Origin: Aphanocapsa sp. GSE-SYN-MK-11-07L
GTDB taxonomy: Bacteria; Cyanobacteriota; Cyanobacteriia; Thermosynechococcales; Thermosynechococcaceae
Direction: 5' to 3'
DNA length: 64,000 nt
NCBI GenBank assembly: GCA_019359715.1
Contig: JAHHGS010000076.1
Location: 1-64,000, forward strand
In this document: positions 482 to 7,371 of the stretch, in pieces
Layout: each line of letters opens with the position of its first letter
Numbering within the stretch: position 1 is the first letter of the stretch
Program-made: the position numbers and the translations under genes
The notes under the pieces: generated by a model
The model's input: only the letters and a program-made list of their open reading frames with translations
The model's database searches: none
What the model was told of the DNA's origin: nothing

Positions 482-808
482 GTGAAAACTACCTCGCTAT
501 CGCCTGAGCTGATTGTCGCTGGCTTTCATGCCCTTTCGGAGCCACTACGAGTCAAAGTTGTGGAGCTTCTACGGTCAAACGAACTCTGCGTTTGCGACCT
601 CTGCGAGACTTTAGACGTTGCCCAGTCCAAGCTATCATTCCACCTCAAGGCTTTGAAGGATGCCAACTTGCTGCGATCGCGGCAAGAAGGACGCTGGATG
701 TATTACAGCTTGAACTTGTCTCAGTTTGTAGTCTTGGAGCAGTATTTGTCAGAATTTCGTCGCCATAGCCCAATCCTGCCCGCTCGCCCCTGTAGTGAAG
801 AGGATTAA
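482..808 (+). CDS. arsR: ArsR-family arsenic-responsive repressor
   Basis: This 108-residue winged-helix protein of the ArsR/SmtB family probably represses the arsenic operon and leaves DNA when As(III) binds. The metalloid-binding signature ELCVCDLC (Cys36, Cys38, Cys41) lies at the start of the recognition region, followed by the DNA-reading helix around QSKLSFHLKALKDA and a wing ending GRWMYYSLN. The length is normal for the family. It starts at GTG 482; no in-frame ATG precedes the conserved core. A dyad 18 bp upstream is a likely autoregulatory operator. The gap-arsJ-acr3 genes follow in the same direction. Confidence 0.93.
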   Translation: MKTTSLSPELIVAGFHALSEPLRVKVVELLRSNELCVCDLCETLDVAQSKLSFHLKALKDANLLRSRQEGRWMYYSLNLSQFVVLEQYLSEFRRHSPILPARPCSEED

Positions 809-908: not shown

Positions 909-1922
909 ATGGCTATACGAGTTGGGATCAATGGATTTGGACGGATTGGGCGATTAGACCTGAGAGCCGCTTGGGGCTGGTCAGACCTGGAGTTTATTCA
1001 TATTAATGAGGTGAAGGGTGGAGCAGAAGCGGCGGCTCACCTGCTGAAGTTTGATTCGGTACACGGGCGTTGGCAGCCGGACGTGACAGCTGGGGGCGAT
1101 CGCATTTACATTGACGGCCAGCCGCTTACTTTTTCGGAACAGGCCAAGCCGGGAGATGTTGCCTGGGATGAGTTGGGTGTGGATATTGTCCTGGAATGCT
1201 CCGGCAAGTTTCGGACTCCAGAAACGCTGGCTCCCTACTTCAAGCGGGGCGTTCGCAAAGTAATTGTGGCGGCTCCGGTCAAGCAGGAAGCGTTGAATGT
1301 GGTGATGGGCGTAAATGATCACTTGTACGATCCCAGACAACACCACCTCCTGACGGCTGCTTCCTGCACCACCAACTGCCTGGCCCCGGTGGTGAAAGTG
1401 ATCCATGAGGGCATTGGTATCCAGCATGGCGTGATCACCACAATTCATGACAATACCAACACTCAAACCTTAGTCGATGCGCCGCACAAGGATCTTCGAC
1501 GGGCCCGGGCTTCTGCTCTATCTTTAATTCCGACCAGTACAGGTTCGGCAACGGCGATCGGTCTGATTTACCCCGAACTCAACGGCAAACTGAACGGCTT
1601 AGCCGTGCGGGTGCCGCTGCTGAATGCCTCTCTGACAGATTGCGTGTTTGAAGTTGTCCGTTCAACCACGATCGCAGAAGTGAATCAACTGCTGAAACAA
1701 GCATCCGAGCAAGCGCCCCTGAAGGGAATTCTGGGCTACGAGGAGCGTCCGCTGGTATCGATCGACTATCTCAACGATCCGCGATCTGCGATCGTCGATG
1801 CCCTGTCAACAATGGTGGTGAATCAAACCCAGGTCAAAATCTACGCCTGGTATGACAACGAGTGGGGCTATGCCAACCGAATGGTGGAACTGGCCAGAAA
1901 AGTCGCATCCAGCCTGAATTGA
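909..1922 (+). CDS. gap: ArsJ-associated glyceraldehyde-3-phosphate dehydrogenase
   Basis: This 337-residue type I GAPDH has the Rossmann motif [10 protein letters not shown] near the N-terminus and the active-site signature [10 protein letters not shown] with catalytic Cys153. The acidic residue in HINEVKG at the end of the second strand suggests NAD preference. Next to arsJ such enzymes are known to accept arsenate in place of phosphate. They make 1-arseno-3-phosphoglycerate, which ArsJ exports before it decays; the pair therefore confers arsenate resistance. GGAGG lies 4 bp before the ATG. The stop is 9 bp before arsJ, so the two are surely co-transcribed. It is probably a dedicated detoxification copy and not the Calvin-cycle GAPDH. 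Confidence 0.92.
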
Positions 1923-1931
1923 GGAACTACC

Positions 1932-3194
1932 ATGACTCCTACTTCTGCTGCGAACGCCAATCTGAAAAACTATGCCCTTGTCACCCTGGCCTACTGGGGC
2001 TTTACCCTCACAGACGGGGCTTTGCGAATGCTGGTATTGCTCTACTTCAACGAAATTGGCTATACCCCAATTCAGATTGCCTTTCTGTTTCTGTTCTACG
2101 AAGTATTTGGGATTGTTACCAACTTTTTGGGAGGCTGGATCGGGTCGCAGTTAGGGCTAAAAGTCACCCTCTACAGCGGAATTGGGCTTCAGGTGTTCGC
2201 CCTGATTATGCTGTCGTTTCTGAATCGGGATTGGGCCCAGTGGTTGGCGGTGCTGTACGTGATGATATCCCAGGCATTTGCGGGGATTGCCAAAGACTTA
2301 ACCAAAATGAGTTCTAAGAGTGCGATTCGGTTGGTGGTGCCCCAGGCGGCGCAATCCTCCCTCTTTAAGTGGGTTGCAGTGCTGACTGGCTCTAAAAATG
2401 CGCTGAAGGGGGTGGGCTTTTTCTTAGGCGCGTTGCTGTTGGGCACGTTTGGGTTTGTGACTTCGCTCTGGATGATGGCAGTTGGGCTAATTTTGATCCT
2501 GTTTACCAGCGTGTTGCTGCCTTCAGGGATGGGCAAGATCAAGGCGAAGGTCAAGTTCACTCAGTTATTCTCCAAGAGTCGCGAGATCAACATCCTCTCC
2601 GCCGCCCGGTTCTTTCTGTTTGGCTCCAGAGATGTCTGGTTTGTGGTCGGCTTGCCCGTTTTCCTCCGCAGTGGGTTGGGCTGGTCGTTCTATCAAGCGG
2701 GCGGATTTCTAGCTTGCTGGGTGATTGGCTACGGCATGATTCAGTTCCTCGCGCCCACTCTGCTCAGACGGTTTGGGAACGGTGAACCGCCCAAATCCAA
2801 AACAATTCAATTTTGGACAGGAGTGCTGACGGCTGTTCCTGCCAGTATCGCCCTGGCATTGCAACTGAATGCTTCGCCCAATCTGACGATCGTTGTCGGG
2901 TTGATGATCTTTGGGATTGTGTTTGCCTTTAACTCGGCAGTGCATTCCTACCTGGTGCTGGCGTTCACGGATGATGACAAAGTTGCTCTGAATGTGGGCT
3001 TTTACTACATGGCAAATTCTGGCGGCCGGCTGATTGGCACCGTGTTATCGGGAGTCATTTTTCAGCTATTTGGGTTGGTCGGTTGCCTCTGGACTTCTTC
3101 TGTGTTCGTCCTTGCCGCGTGGGTCATCTCTCGCAAACTGCCTGACCCGCAACCCAGTGAGGCGATCGCTTGGAAAGCGGGCGACGGGGACTAA
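1932..3194 (+). CDS. arsJ: ArsJ organoarsenical (1-arseno-3-phosphoglycerate) efflux permease
   Basis: This 420-residue major facilitator superfamily protein has about eleven or twelve hydrophobic helices spread over its full length. The N-terminal region LVTLAYWGFTLTDGALRML and the segments DLTKMSSKSAIR and FFLFGSRDVWFVVGLPVF are characteristic of ArsJ as I know it. It sits in the inner membrane and exports the unstable arsenate adduct produced by the neighbouring GAPDH. It begins 9 bp after the gap stop and is followed 42 bp later by acr3. The order gap-arsJ-acr3 is a strong functional context. Confidence 0.92.
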   Translation: MTPTSAANANLKNYALVTLAYWGFTLTDGALRMLVLLYFNEIGYTPIQIAFLFLFYEVFGIVTNFLGGWIGSQLGLKVTLYSGIGLQVFALIMLSFLNRDWAQWLAVLYVMISQAFAGIAKDLTKMSSKSAIRLVVPQAAQSSLFKWVAVLTGSKNALKGVGFFLGALLLGTFGFVTSLWMMAVGLILILFTSVLLPSGMGKIKAKVKFTQLFSKSREINILSAARFFLFGSRDVWFVVGLPVFLRSGLGWSFYQAGGFLACWVIGYGMIQFLAPTLLRRFGNGEPPKSKTIQFWTGVLTAVPASIALALQLNASPNLTIVVGLMIFGIVFAFNSAVHSYLVLAFTDDDKVALNVGFYYMANSGGRLIGTVLSGVIFQLFGLVGCLWTSSVFVLAAWVISRKLPDPQPSEAIAWKAGDGD

Positions 3195-3236: not shown

Positions 3237-4391
3237 ATGGCTGCTAAACATCCTTCAATCAACTCCAAAGCTGTGCAAGCAGGCGGTTCGCTCAGTTTCT
3301 TTGAGCGGTATCTGACACTCTGGGTTTTTCTGTGTATTGGAGCCGGAATTTTACTAGGGCGAGTATTTCCAGGCGTTGCAGTCGCGCTTGATGCCATGAG
3401 CATCTACCAGGTTTCGGTTCCAATCGCCATCTGTTTGTTCTTCATGATGTACCCGATCATGGTGAAAATTGACTTTTCCCAGGCGGCACAGGCAGTCCGC
3501 ACACCGAAACCTGTGGTTCTAACGCTGGTCGTGAACTGGCTGATCAAGCCCTTTACGATGGTCGCCTTTGCTCAGTTCTTTTTGGGATGGCTGTTTCGTC
3601 CTTTGATTACGGGCACAGAAATTATTCGCGGGGTCGAAGTGCCGCTGGCAAATTCCTACATTGCGGGTGCAATTCTGCTGGGCATTGCTCCTTGTACGGC
3701 AATGGTCTTGTTGTGGGGCTACCTCTGCTACGGCAATCAAGGGCACACGCTGGTGATGGTGGCGGTGAATTCCCTGGCCATGTTATTTCTCTACGCGCCT
3801 CTCGGTCGCTGGCTGTTGGCTGCTAACGATTTAACGGTTCCCTGGCAGACGATCGCCCTCTCGGTATTAATTTATGTTGGTCTGCCCTTAATCGCAGGCA
3901 TCTATTCCCGCTACTGGATTTTTAAGCACAAGGGACGCGCCTGGTTTGAAAAAAGGTTTTTGAAGTATCTGAGTCCAGTGGCGATCGCGGCGCTGCTGAT
4001 CACGCTCATCTTGCTCTTTGCCTTCAAGGGTGAACTGATTGTCAGCAATCCACTACACATTCTGCTGATTGCAGTCCCACTGTTTTTACAGACCAATTTC
4101 ATCTTCTTGATTTCCTATGTGGCGGCTCAACGCATGAAATTGGCTTACGAAGATGCGGCACCAGCGGCATTGATTGGAGCCAGTAATCATTTTGAAGTGG
4201 CGATCGCCACAGCGGTTGTGTTGTTTGGTCTAAATTCTGGTGCGGCGTTAGCAACCGTTGTCGGAGTGCTGATCGAAGTCCCTGTGATGCTGATGCTAGT
4301 CGAGTTTTGTAAGCGTACTGCCGTTTGGTTTCCCAGAGAGCCGGAGAAGGCAACCCTGCCCGATCCGCGCTGCGTGATTCCTGATCGCTAG
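3237..4391 (+). CDS. acr3: Acr3-family arsenite efflux carrier
   Basis: This 384-residue polytopic protein of the bile/arsenite/riboflavin transporter superfamily extrudes As(III) across the inner membrane. Ten hydrophobic segments can be drawn. Family hallmarks are [13 protein letters not shown], the conserved Cys in [15 protein letters not shown], and the buried Glu in [13 protein letters not shown]. The ATG at 3237 gives the expected N-terminus. Acr3 needs arsenite, so a cell using it against arsenate also needs a reductase. The adjacent arsC homologue lacks key residues, which raises the question of which protein supplies it. Confidence 0.95.
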
Positions 4392-4417: not shown

Positions 4418-4819
4418 ATGAAGCGAGTCATGTTTATTTGCAAAACTAACGCAGTCTACTCGCAAATTGCTGAAGGGTTCGCCAAACATTTGGGAGTTGG
4501 CAGCATTCAGGTGACGAGTGCAGGTTTAGCAGCTAGCCAGGTTAATCCAATGGCGATCTCGACCATGAATGAGGCAGGAGTGAACATCAGCCGTCAAACC
4601 TCCAAGGTTTTGAGCGATTTCAACCCCCAAGATTTTGACATTGTGATTTCGCTCTGTGGAGATGCAGTAGAGTTACCTCTCGACTGGATCGCAGCAGAGA
4701 GATTTGAAAACTGGCCGTTGGCTGCTTCAGATCACCCACCGGACATCCTTTCTGAAGTACGGGATCAAATTCGAGAACGGGTGATTCACTTGATCGAGTC
4801 CCTTGACACATCACATTGA
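4418..4819 (+). CDS. Degenerate arsenate reductase-like low-molecular-weight phosphatase homologue
   Basis: This 133-residue protein aligns along its whole length with the Synechocystis-type ArsC (LMW-PTP fold, glutathione/glutaredoxin-linked). The N-terminal Cys of MFICKTNAVYSQIAEG is kept. In the family this loop reads C-K-R-N-S-C-R, with an essential Arg at the last position; here that residue is Tyr. One of the paired Cys in ISLCGCG is also replaced (here ISLCGDA). The phosphate/arsenate P-loop CX5R is therefore broken and one redox Cys is lost. It is intact as an ORF and lies in the ars operon, so it may bind or regulate instead of reducing arsenate. The family comparison is from memory. 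Confidence 0.8.
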   Translation: MKRVMFICKTNAVYSQIAEGFAKHLGVGSIQVTSAGLAASQVNPMAISTMNEAGVNISRQTSKVLSDFNPQDFDIVISLCGDAVELPLDWIAAERFENWPLAASDHPPDILSEVRDQIRERVIHLIESLDTSH

Positions 4820-4828
4820 GTGAAGATT

Positions 4829-5287
4829 ATGGAACAACCAGTCTCACAACCAATTACAGAAAATCTATGGTGGGTGATTCCTCAGCAATTGGCAGGGGTA
4901 CGGATGCCAACTGCTGAGGAATTAATTCAGTTACAAGAGGCGGGAGTTGGGGCGATCGTGTCTGTATTTCATCAGGATGCAAATCTCAGTCTTTATCAGC
5001 AAGCCAATATTCCATTTATTTGGTTGCCTATCGCCATTGATTCTGTGCCAAATCAAGTTCAACTTGAAGAATTTTGTAGTTTTATTGAATCTCAAAATCA
5101 ACTTGGTCATGCGGTTGCTGTTCATTGCAGTACGGGTAAACATCGCACTGGAACCCTGTTAGCTACCTACTTAATCAGTACGGGCTGGTCTTATCCTGAT
5201 GCGATGCAAACGATCCTAAATGCTAGTTCACAGGTTGAACTTCCTGCCTCCCAAACTCAATTTCTGCAAGCCTTTGCAGCAGCCTAA
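4829..5287 (+). CDS. Dual-specificity phosphatase-like CX5R protein, copy 1
   Basis: This protein of about 152 residues has the dual-specificity/tyrosine phosphatase fold, with the P-loop HCSTGKHRTGT (CX5R intact). I start it at ATG 4829 because the tandem copy begins identically with MEQP; a GTG at 4820 directly after the arsC stop would add three residues. The usual general-acid Asp loop reads WLPIAIDSVPN, with Asp one place away from the expected position. It shares ENLWWVIP, LAGVR and GVGAIVSV with the next gene, so the two arose by duplication. In the ars operon it could act as an arsenate reductase, as CX5R proteins of the yeast Acr2p type do, or as a protein phosphatase. Confidence 0.75.
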   Translation: MEQPVSQPITENLWWVIPQQLAGVRMPTAEELIQLQEAGVGAIVSVFHQDANLSLYQQANIPFIWLPIAIDSVPNQVQLEEFCSFIESQNQLGHAVAVHCSTGKHRTGTLLATYLISTGWSYPDAMQTILNASSQVELPASQTQFLQAFAAA

Positions 5288-5299
5288 AACAGAGGAATT

Positions 5300-5776
5300 A
5301 TGGAACAACCAATCTCTGAAAACTTATGGTGGGTGATTCCTGACAAACTGGCAGGAGTCCGAAAACCTACCGCAGATGAAATCTTGGATCTGAAAGTAGC
5401 GGGAGTGGGGGCGATCGTTTCCGTAATGGATGATCCCTCTAACTTGGACTTGTATGAGCAGGTGGGAATACCGCATCGATGGCTACCTACCAAAGGCGGT
5501 ACATCACCCAATCCAGAGCAAATTCAGGAGTTACAGACGTTTATTGATGAGCAAAATCGTCTTGGTCATGGGGTTGCTATTCACTGCACCAATGGCAGAC
5601 GACGTACCGGAACCATGCTCGCAGCTTATCTGATTCAAACAGGGCTAACTTTTGATGAAGCAATGCAACCGCTGCTTACAGCAAAACCAGATTTAGACTT
5701 ACGAGACGCTCAAGTTAGCTTTTTACAATCCCTTGCGAACGAAGCGATACGGGACGAAGCAACCCCCTCCACCTGA
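5300..5776 (+). CDS. Dual-specificity phosphatase-like CX5R protein, copy 2
   Basis: This 158-residue paralogue lies 12 bp after copy 1, with an AGAGGA ribosome binding site. The P-loop HCTNGRRRTGT keeps CX5R. The general-acid loop is WLPTKGGTSPN with no Asp, which would slow classical phosphatase turnover but need not prevent nucleophilic attack by the Cys. The C-terminus (EAIRDEATPST) extends about ten residues past copy 1. It ends the rightward ars operon and converges on arsI. The substrate is unknown; arsenate, arsenylated metabolites or phosphoproteins are all possible. Confidence 0.75.
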   Translation: MEQPISENLWWVIPDKLAGVRKPTADEILDLKVAGVGAIVSVMDDPSNLDLYEQVGIPHRWLPTKGGTSPNPEQIQELQTFIDEQNRLGHGVAIHCTNGRRRTGTMLAAYLIQTGLTFDEAMQPLLTAKPDLDLRDAQVSFLQSLANEAIRDEATPST

Positions 5777-5814: not shown

Positions 5815-6234
5815 CTAGCTACATTTCGCGCAGGCACTTGCCGGATTGCGAACTTCAGGGGTGGGTTTCTCAATATGTTCCAGAACCGTGTAAATCTCCC
5901 AAGGTGCGCCATCAGGATCAACCACCCAGGCTTTGTCTTGCAATGCATAGCAGCAATCCACTTTGTCTTCTTGATGGGGAACTAAACCTGTTTGTCGGAG
6001 GCGATCGCTGGCGACTTTCACCTCTGCTGCTGTTTCAACTTCAACCCCCAGATGATTAAGGGTTCCTGCCTTCTCAGCATTTTCAATCAACACCAGTTTC
6101 AATGCCGGTTCTGCCACAGCAAAGTTGGCATAACCAGGTTTGCGCTTAGCCGGTTCAGTACCAAATAGCTTGCCGTAAAACTCAACCGCTTGCTCGATAT
6201 TGCTCACATTCAGCGCTAATTGAACTCGTGACAT
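5815..6234 (-). CDS. arsI: ArsI C-As lyase (VOC-family dioxygenase)
   Basis: This 139-residue vicinal-oxygen-chelate protein of the ArsI/CadI group cleaves the C-As bond of trivalent organoarsenicals such as MAs(III). Predicted Fe(II) ligands are Gln in SRVQLALNV, His in LNHLGVEVE and Glu in PWEIYTV. The adjacent Cys pair in KVDCCYALQDK is the substrate-binding signature, and the tail ACAKCS adds two more Cys. I start it at the ATG whose last base is 6234, because AGGAGG lies just upstream and the protein then begins MSRVQLAL like its relatives; the longer frame adds 19 unlikely residues. It is divergent from arsR2. Confidence 0.93.
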   Translation of the reverse strand: MSRVQLALNVSNIEQAVEFYGKLFGTEPAKRKPGYANFAVAEPALKLVLIENAEKAGTLNHLGVEVETAAEVKVASDRLRQTGLVPHQEDKVDCCYALQDKAWVVDPDGAPWEIYTVLEHIEKPTPEVRNPASACAKCS

Positions 6235-6321: not shown

Positions 6322-6690
6322 ATGAAGATATCTAAACCCGTTTCAAGCTGTTGTGTGCCTTTACTTTCCGGGCAGCTCAATCATCAGGAAGCCGAACAGT
6401 TGGCAGCCATCTTTCGCGTATTGGGCGAACCTGCCCGGTTGCAGATCTTGAGCCTGATTGCTGCCCAGTCAACGGGTGAAGTTTGCGCTTGTGAATTGAC
6501 AGAACCGTTGGGATTATCGCAACCTACCTTAAGTCACCATCTGAAAGTGATGTATGAAGCAGGATTGCTCCATAAGGAGCGGCGTGGCACCTGGATTTAC
6601 TACCGCCTAGTGCCAGAGCGATTTGAAGTGTTGCACAGAGTCTTAGCAATCCCCACCCGTCGTCCTGATGCAGTTCATTCATCCCCTTGA
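6322..6690 (+). CDS. arsR: Second ArsR-family repressor
   Basis: This 122-residue ArsR/SmtB winged-helix protein has different thiol sites from arsR1: an N-terminal Cys pair (Cys10, Cys11 in VSSCCVPLL) and Cys55/Cys57 in GEVCACELTEPLG. Such a combination can form a three-thiolate As(III) or MAs(III) site. The recognition helix is QPTLSHHLKVMYEAGL and the wing is RRGTWIYYRL. It lies 15 bp before arsH and is divergent from arsI, so it probably controls the organoarsenical genes. The palindrome at 6259-6272 is the likely target. Confidence 0.92.
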   Translation: MKISKPVSSCCVPLLSGQLNHQEAEQLAAIFRVLGEPARLQILSLIAAQSTGEVCACELTEPLGLSQPTLSHHLKVMYEAGLLHKERRGTWIYYRLVPERFEVLHRVLAIPTRRPDAVHSSP

Positions 6691-6705: not shown

Positions 6706-7371
6706 ATGACCAACCTTGCTCACCCGCCCAGAATTTTGTTCTTGTACGGTTCCCTACGGGAGCGTTCCTACAGCCGTTTGCTGGCAGAAGAAGCCGCGCG
6801 AATTATTCAAGAATTTGGTGCAGAAGTGATGTTTTTTGACCCGCGAGACCTTCCAATTTATGGCAGCGTCCCTGATACTCATCCCAAGGTGCAAGAGTTA
6901 CGGGAGTTGAGCCTGTGGTCGGAAGGGCAAGTCTGGTCTAGCCCAGAGATGCACGGTCAAATTTCCGGCATCATGAAGAACCAAATTGACTGGATTCCCT
7001 TGAGCATCGGAGCCGTTCGACCGACACAGGGGAGAACCTTGGCAGTGATGCAAGTCAGTGGTGGTTCCCAATCCTTCAATGCGGTGAACACGCTCCGCAT
7101 TTTGGGGCGCTGGATGCGGATGTTCACCATTCCCAACCAGTCTTCGGTTGCTAGAGCCTATCAGGAGTTCAATGAAGATGGCACCATGAAAGATTCCCCC
7201 TACCGCGATCGCGTGGTGGATGTGATGGAAGAACTCTACAAGTTCACCCTACTATTGCGTGATCAGGTGGATTATTTGTGCGATCGCTACAGCGAACGAA
7301 AAGAGAGAGTCGCAAAAGAAACTGCTGCGAAAATGCCAGGTGGTATTGAAAGGTCTGGGCGATCACCGTAA
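6706..7371 (+). CDS. arsH: ArsH NADPH-dependent FMN reductase (organoarsenical oxidase)
   Basis: This 221-residue flavodoxin-like protein carries the FMN phosphate loop [13 protein letters not shown], the conserved [19 protein letters not shown] block and [18 protein letters not shown]. ArsH oxidises trivalent methyl- or aryl-arsenicals to less toxic pentavalent forms with NADPH and FMN. The family is usually 210 to 240 residues, so it is full length. It follows arsR2 by 15 bp and is the last gene of the arsenic island. The C-terminal tail ([11 protein letters not shown] region) is charged and probably disordered. Confidence 0.93.

Follow-up and report, generated by a model that had tools for sequence, protein, structure and literature searches.

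A degenerate ArsC and a family of phosphatase-like proteins lacking the usual general acid in cyanobacterial arsenic operons

What becomes of arsenate in a bacterium whose ArsC has lost its active-site residues? This question is raised by an arsenic gene cluster at the start of the window, that is, the stretch of 64,000 nucleotides of the cyanobacterium Aphanocapsa sp. GSE-SYN-MK-11-07L (contig JAHHGS010000076.1) analysed here. The genes follow one another in the order ArsR, ArsJ-type GAPDH, ArsJ, ACR3, an ArsC homologue and two dual-specificity-phosphatase-like (DSP-like) proteins; beyond these lie ArsI on the opposite strand, a second ArsR and ArsH (Table 1). The initial annotation, whose coordinates and reading frames for 4418–5776 are correct, suggested that the two DSP-like proteins replace ArsC as arsenate reductases of the Acr2p type.

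Table 1. Genes of the arsenic cluster in the window and the evidence for each assignment
Feature	Coordinates	Strand	Evidence
ArsR/SmtB repressor 1	482..808	+	NF033788 92 bits, cut-off 55
ArsJ-associated GAPDH	909..1922	+	NF033735 571.9 bits, cut-off 450
ArsJ transporter	1932..3194	+	NF033734 584.6 bits, cut-off 400
ACR3 arsenite efflux transporter	3237..4391	+	TIGR00832 420.3 bits, cut-off 282.8
Degenerate ArsC (R14Y, C82D, D103A, P104S; Cys8 and Cys80 kept)	4418..4819	+	alignment, TIGR02689, tree
DSP1, CX5R protein	4829..5287	+	acid loop PIAIDSVP (Asp one residue late), P-loop HCSTGKHRTG; ATG start at 4829 picked by homology, GTG at 4820 a possible alternative
DSP2, CX5R protein	5300..5776	+	acid loop PTKGGTSP (no Asp), P-loop HCTNGRRRTG
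ArsI/CadI-type VOC protein	5815..6234	-	NF041414 182.3 bits, cut-off 116; start at MSRVQ inferred
ArsR/SmtB repressor 2	6322..6690	+	NF033788 96.9 bits
ArsH	6706..7371	+	TIGR02690 389.4 bits, cut-off 292

The ArsC homologue matches Synechocystis-type ArsC (TIGR02689; PDB 2l17, 2l18 and 2l19) over nearly its full length, with about 131–133 bits, and shares its Cys8 and Cys80. Unlike this enzyme, it reads CKTNAVYSQ in the P-loop instead of the usual CKKNSARSQ, which turns Arg14 into Tyr, and ISLCGDAV in the redox stretch instead of ISLCGCGV, which turns Cys82 into Asp. The alignment thus agrees with the initial annotation that the P-loop Arg and one redox Cys are gone, and it adds a further loss, D103A-P104S. 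Against TIGR02689, the model of the glutathione/glutaredoxin-type ArsC, the protein scores 151.4 bits, below the cut-off of 157.6. A leave-one-out comparison of 50 distinct ArsC proteins sets it apart, with departures at 9 of 49 near-invariant columns (next worst 3, median 0), and its terminal branch, at 1.87 changes per column, is the longest in the tree (next 0.74, median 0.14). Relative to intact relatives, its differences are shifted to codon positions 1 and 2. To judge from its residues, the window ArsC is catalytically dead, most likely as part of an ongoing decay under relaxed selection. The reading frame is intact. Neutral drift allows this, as the frame survives in 157–279 of 1000 simulations at 80–85% identity; the intact frame does not prove drift.

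An intact ArsC elsewhere in the genome, which the initial annotation had raised as a possible source of resistance, was not found. A search across the genome (5.1 Mb, 99.5% complete) for a second low-molecular-weight ArsC returned none, leaving the window homologue as the sole one, and an above-cut-off ArsC of either usual type is absent. The only PF03960 match (L001) was rejected as an ordinary ArsC; it is of the Spx/MgsR type, with 118.7 bits for TIGR01617, above its cut-off, and 52.4 bits for TIGR00014, where the cut-off is 106.05. The same genome contains a further ArsR-GAPDH-ArsJ cluster, broken off at a contig end (G000:C91, L135), and another ArsJ fragment on a separate contig (G000:C48, L136).

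GAPDH and ArsJ constitute a route that disposes of arsenate without reducing it. Across a draw of 386 cyanobacterial genomes we detected ACR3 in 121, ArsC in 98 (86 above cut-off) and ArsJ in 95. Among the 121 genomes with ACR3, above-cut-off ArsC occurs in 9 of 54 that contain ArsJ vs 55 of 67 that do not (Fisher p = 4e-13; p = 2.8e-7 without family f19, the counts being per genome and kinship being handled by that omission alone). Within this ACR3-bearing set, ArsJ and an ArsC above its cut-off come close to excluding each other. The P-loop Arg is lost in 3 of the 14 ArsJ-containing panel genomes with any ArsC match (the window's genome, G187 and G276) and in none of 7 controls without ArsJ; nine ArsJ-containing genomes with above-cut-off ArsC have kept it. 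Nodularia spumigena agrees with this pattern: according to passages of an earlier report it lacks ArsC, and its ars cluster includes genes for GAPDH and an MFS permease (PMC3610870). The ArsC-like proteins of G187 and G276, which belong to one genus (L165 5245–5640 and L166 222–617), are devoid of a redox Cys as well as of the P-loop Arg; their genes adjoin a gene that we read as aspartyl-tRNA synthetase, and both genomes have ArsJ.

The initial annotation characterized the two proteins downstream of ArsC as DSP-like, with intact CX5R motifs and a missing or shifted general-acid Asp, and the alignment is in line with this description. DSP1 carries HCSTGKHRT and DSP2 HCTNGRRRT. At the position three past the conserved Pro, where the Asp is expected, DSP2 has Gly and DSP1 has Ile, followed in DSP1 by an Asp one residue on. 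The two proteins are 53% identical. A recent tandem duplication is rejected by the tree, where DSP1 clusters with the DSP of a Calothrix plasmid and with a single member of a tandem DSP pair in a Leptolyngbyaceae MAG. The assignment to the Acr2p type is not supported. An AlphaFold2 model of DSP2 (pLDDT 91.5) adopts the DSP fold, and we found no rhodanese or Cdc25 match for the DSPs in Pfam or among the 50 fold matches listed. Acr2p, by contrast, has a Cdc25/rhodanese fold, so that Acr2p and LmACR2 share the CX5R P-loop with DSP1 and DSP2 but not the fold. The nearest solved folds to the DSP2 model are DUSP23/VHZ, Tk-PTP and SsoPTP (TM 0.76–0.80 on the query, 23–30% identity), for which we know of no link to arsenic. 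Unlike the window proteins, these three are described in passages of PMC12848742 as true phosphatases with general acids.

Cyanobacteria possess a family of DSP-fold CX5R proteins that is tied to arsenic operons, and DSP1 and DSP2 genuinely belong to it. We assembled 46 DSP loci, 34 from a genome_contigs scan that covers close relatives only, 11 from the genome draw, and the window itself; an orthologue is present in 12 of the 386 genomes drawn, that of the window included. The scan loci are labelled cyanobacterial in 33 of 34 cases. The other one (L007), labelled as a Candidatus Gracilibacteria MAG, shows a cyanobacterial-type ars operon with a DSP, and the MAG is probably mislabelled or mixed. 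In 45 of the 46 loci the DSP has one or more ars genes within 5.5 kb; the exception (L033) is situated near a contig end. Within this distance we found ArsH at 38 loci, ArsC at 33, ArsR at 32 and ACR3 at 29; ArsC and ArsH each occur on the same strand within 200 bp in 25 of 46. PstS-like and aquaporin-like genes, named from sequences and plasmid annotation, recur as well. An open frame of 413 residues at L031 (7284–8525) contains both ArsH and DSP; its linker resembles translated intergenic sequence, so that the frame may reflect a lost stop and the fusion is doubtful.

The active site was compared over 53 distinct cyanobacterial sequences, with rows trimmed at stops and with L035 excluded because its contig ends inside the P-loop. 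Asp does not occur at the acid position in any of them: 50 have Gly there and 3 have Ile, and in two of the latter (window DSP1 and its counterpart at L015) an Asp follows at the next position. The P-loop Arg is preceded by Arg in 49 sequences, His in 3, Lys in 1 and Gly in none, and 45 of the 53 contain a single Cys. The P-loop Cys and Arg are present in all 53, for which CX5R was a selection criterion, and are invariant also in a separate 32-row alignment; the P-loop is strongly conserved and positive across the family. As far as the aligned residues tell, the missing general acid is a trait of the family and not particular to the window.

The literature that we searched, which represents a part only and includes few subscription journals, yielded no description of DSPs encoded in ars operons of cyanobacteria, and the passages of PMC12848742 returned by a search for dual specificity phosphatase, arsenate reductase and cyanobacteria do not treat arsenic operons. 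The best-studied case is VarH (VC1070) of Vibrio cholerae, a DSP encoded in the var operon together with ArsR, GAPDH and ArsJ. According to passages of the original report, VarH is a weak phosphatase that depends on its Cys and Arg and is needed for arsenate resistance; 1-arseno-3-phosphoglycerate (1As3PG) accumulates in the VarH mutant, and VarH was proposed to be an arsenatase acting on this compound, which is unstable and on which its authors did not confirm in vitro activity (PMC9601151). The ArsC of V. cholerae is inactive (PMC9601151), as the residues indicate for that of the window. In the same passages VarH is described as rather exclusive to Vibrionaceae. We found VarH-like genes beside ars genes on plasmids of Methylophaga, Pseudomonas nitroreducens, P. 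putida, Pseudoalteromonas, Shewanella and Citrobacter. Across these plasmids the neighbours are GAPDH-ArsJ or ArsC-ACR3, and the Shewanella and Citrobacter loci showed no ArsJ in the stretch examined. Two other relatives, in Thauera and Roseomonas, lie outside ars loci, and a DSP is missing next to one GAPDH-ArsJ pair of Pseudoalteromonas. On a Citrobacter amalonaticus plasmid (L141) the VarH-like protein follows arsA-arsC-ACR3-trxB, and the matches listed for similar proteins include many Klebsiella and Citrobacter plasmids. A gene of this kind beside GAPDH-ArsJ is also mentioned in published work (passages of PMC6947025 and PMC10138600).

The VarH-like proteins ("CDKN3 family") resemble the cyanobacterial DSPs in being DSP-superfamily CX5R proteins inside arsenic operons, often by GAPDH-ArsJ and sometimes adjoining ArsC-ACR3 without ArsJ. 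They differ in the active site: in an alignment from which eleven rows with a stop in the extracted stretch were dropped, 7 of 7 VarH-like sequences bear the acid Asp and have Gly immediately preceding the P-loop Arg, as against 0 of 53 cyanobacterial DSPs for either residue. Their identity to DSP2 is about 27–31%. In the trees, the VarH-like proteins group with CDKN3-family proteins, away from the cyanobacterial clade. A shared arsenic ancestor was rejected, the joint clade giving p-AU 0.026, a moderate value obtained with long branches. V. cholerae VarH is represented in the alignments by a Photobacterium protein of the same gene order; the second tree contains 17 of the 53 cyanobacterial rows and omits the own-genome paralogue rows og_L039 (badly extracted) and og_L114. 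The separate clades suggest that a DSP was acquired by arsenic operons on two or more occasions. Together with the acid and Gly differences, this separation means that the function of VarH can be carried over to the cyanobacterial DSPs by analogy only.

The explanation that we prefer, with a confidence just short of even, is a joint one: ArsC decayed as GAPDH-ArsJ covers arsenate, and the DSPs act on an arsenate adduct. ArsC would be dispensable because GAPDH-ArsJ in the same operon, along with the further ArsR-GAPDH-ArsJ cluster, handles arsenate unreduced. The P-loop Cys and Arg of the DSP would attack an activated arsenate adduct, for example 1-arseno-3-phosphoglycerate, at its arsenyl group. 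Free arsenate would then be returned to whichever disposal route is available, export by ArsJ or reduction by ArsC. The leaving group would be a carboxylate and would need no general acid, and this would explain why the acid is absent throughout the family. We observed the sequences, operon association, residue losses and genome content and predicted the fold; substrate and reaction we infer. In 41 of the 43 DSP genomes no ArsJ exceeds its cut-off, so the link of the DSP to GAPDH-ArsJ is not a specific one. We also count against this explanation the nine ArsJ-containing genomes with an above-cut-off, Arg-bearing ArsC.

The replacement of ArsC proposed in the initial annotation can be reformulated for an arsenate reductase of DSP fold, in which the one Cys of the P-loop would attack arsenate and GSH/glutaredoxin would finish the reaction. 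A CX5R motif without acid Asp and without Gly before Arg in 53 of 53 sequences is consistent with this idea, and so are the 45 sequences with one Cys only, as is possible for a GSH-dependent enzyme. The proteins do belong to an arsenic-operon family, and the window's genome is indeed without an intact ArsC. However, 40 of the 43 DSP genomes have an ArsC match, above cut-off in 39, and in the genome G117 ArsC, its motifs intact, and DSP are even joined in a single 276-residue open frame (L092 6388–7218), an odd arrangement for two redundant reductases. The retention of ArsC in 39 of 43 genomes and its frequent same-strand position within 200 bp point to the DSP as a companion of ArsC rather than a substitute. 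Intact ArsC is missing from four DSP genomes (G000, that of the window, G062, G395 and G415). ArsJ exceeds its cut-off in 2 of the 43, and these are G000 and G062 (p = 0.0066); G403 has a partial ArsJ match. Both high-completeness genomes without intact ArsC possess GAPDH-ArsJ, the gene order in G062 being ArsR, PstS-like, ACR3, DSP, GAPDH, ArsJ, ArsI, ArsH. G395 and G415, genomes without a completeness figure, have ACR3 and DSP, with neither ArsC nor ArsJ found, and provide the main remaining support for replacement. On plasmids, GAPDH, ArsJ, ACR3 and DSP stand in a row in Leptolyngbya boryana, with no ArsC within the 12 kb examined, and GAPDH-ArsJ, DSP and an annotated arsenate reductase occur all together in Calothrix. 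Finally, intact ArsC proteins retain their own acid-loop Asp-Pro, so arsenate reduction alone does not favour loss of the acid. We therefore regard a DSP-fold reductase that took over from ArsC as quite unlikely, and replacement as weaker than the reading in which GAPDH-ArsJ makes ArsC dispensable and the DSPs perform another step.

A pseudophosphatase that binds arsenate or phosphate with no or very slow turnover, either to buffer arsenate or to dock on ArsC or ArsH as a regulatory subunit, would fit the family-wide loss of the acid, the conserved positive P-loop, one fusion to ArsC and a less certain one to ArsH; we consider it unlikely, as the Cys and Arg preserved in every sequence are unneeded for binding alone. 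The DSPs might instead be ordinary phosphatases that use an alternative acid and whose substrate is a phosphoprotein or phosphometabolite arising under arsenate stress. Such a role is suggested by the proximity to the VHZ/DUSP23 fold, by the late Asp of DSP1 and by alternate acids documented for VHZ and SsoPTP in passages of PMC12848742. It seems very unlikely given that 51 of the 53 sequences lack Asp at both the usual loop position and the following one and that the DSPs are tightly confined to ars loci. In a broader formulation, it is possible, if doubtful, that the cyanobacterial clade forms a new class of DSP-fold, acid-less and mostly single-Cys arsenic enzymes, either arsenate reductases or acyl-arsenate hydrolases, that was recruited to arsenic operons independently of VarH and is able to continue after the loss of ArsC.

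A phosphatase-like gene is usually overlooked in the arsenic operons of two phyla, and VarH, as the best-studied case, points to an enzyme that acts on an arsenate adduct. The cyanobacterial DSPs have discarded the residue that defines a phosphatase and kept the nucleophile, and so offer a clean test of whether a PTP fold can become an arsenic-specific enzyme. The near-exclusive occurrence of ArsC and GAPDH-ArsJ, together with the decaying ArsC of the window, suggests how one strategy against arsenate may displace another.
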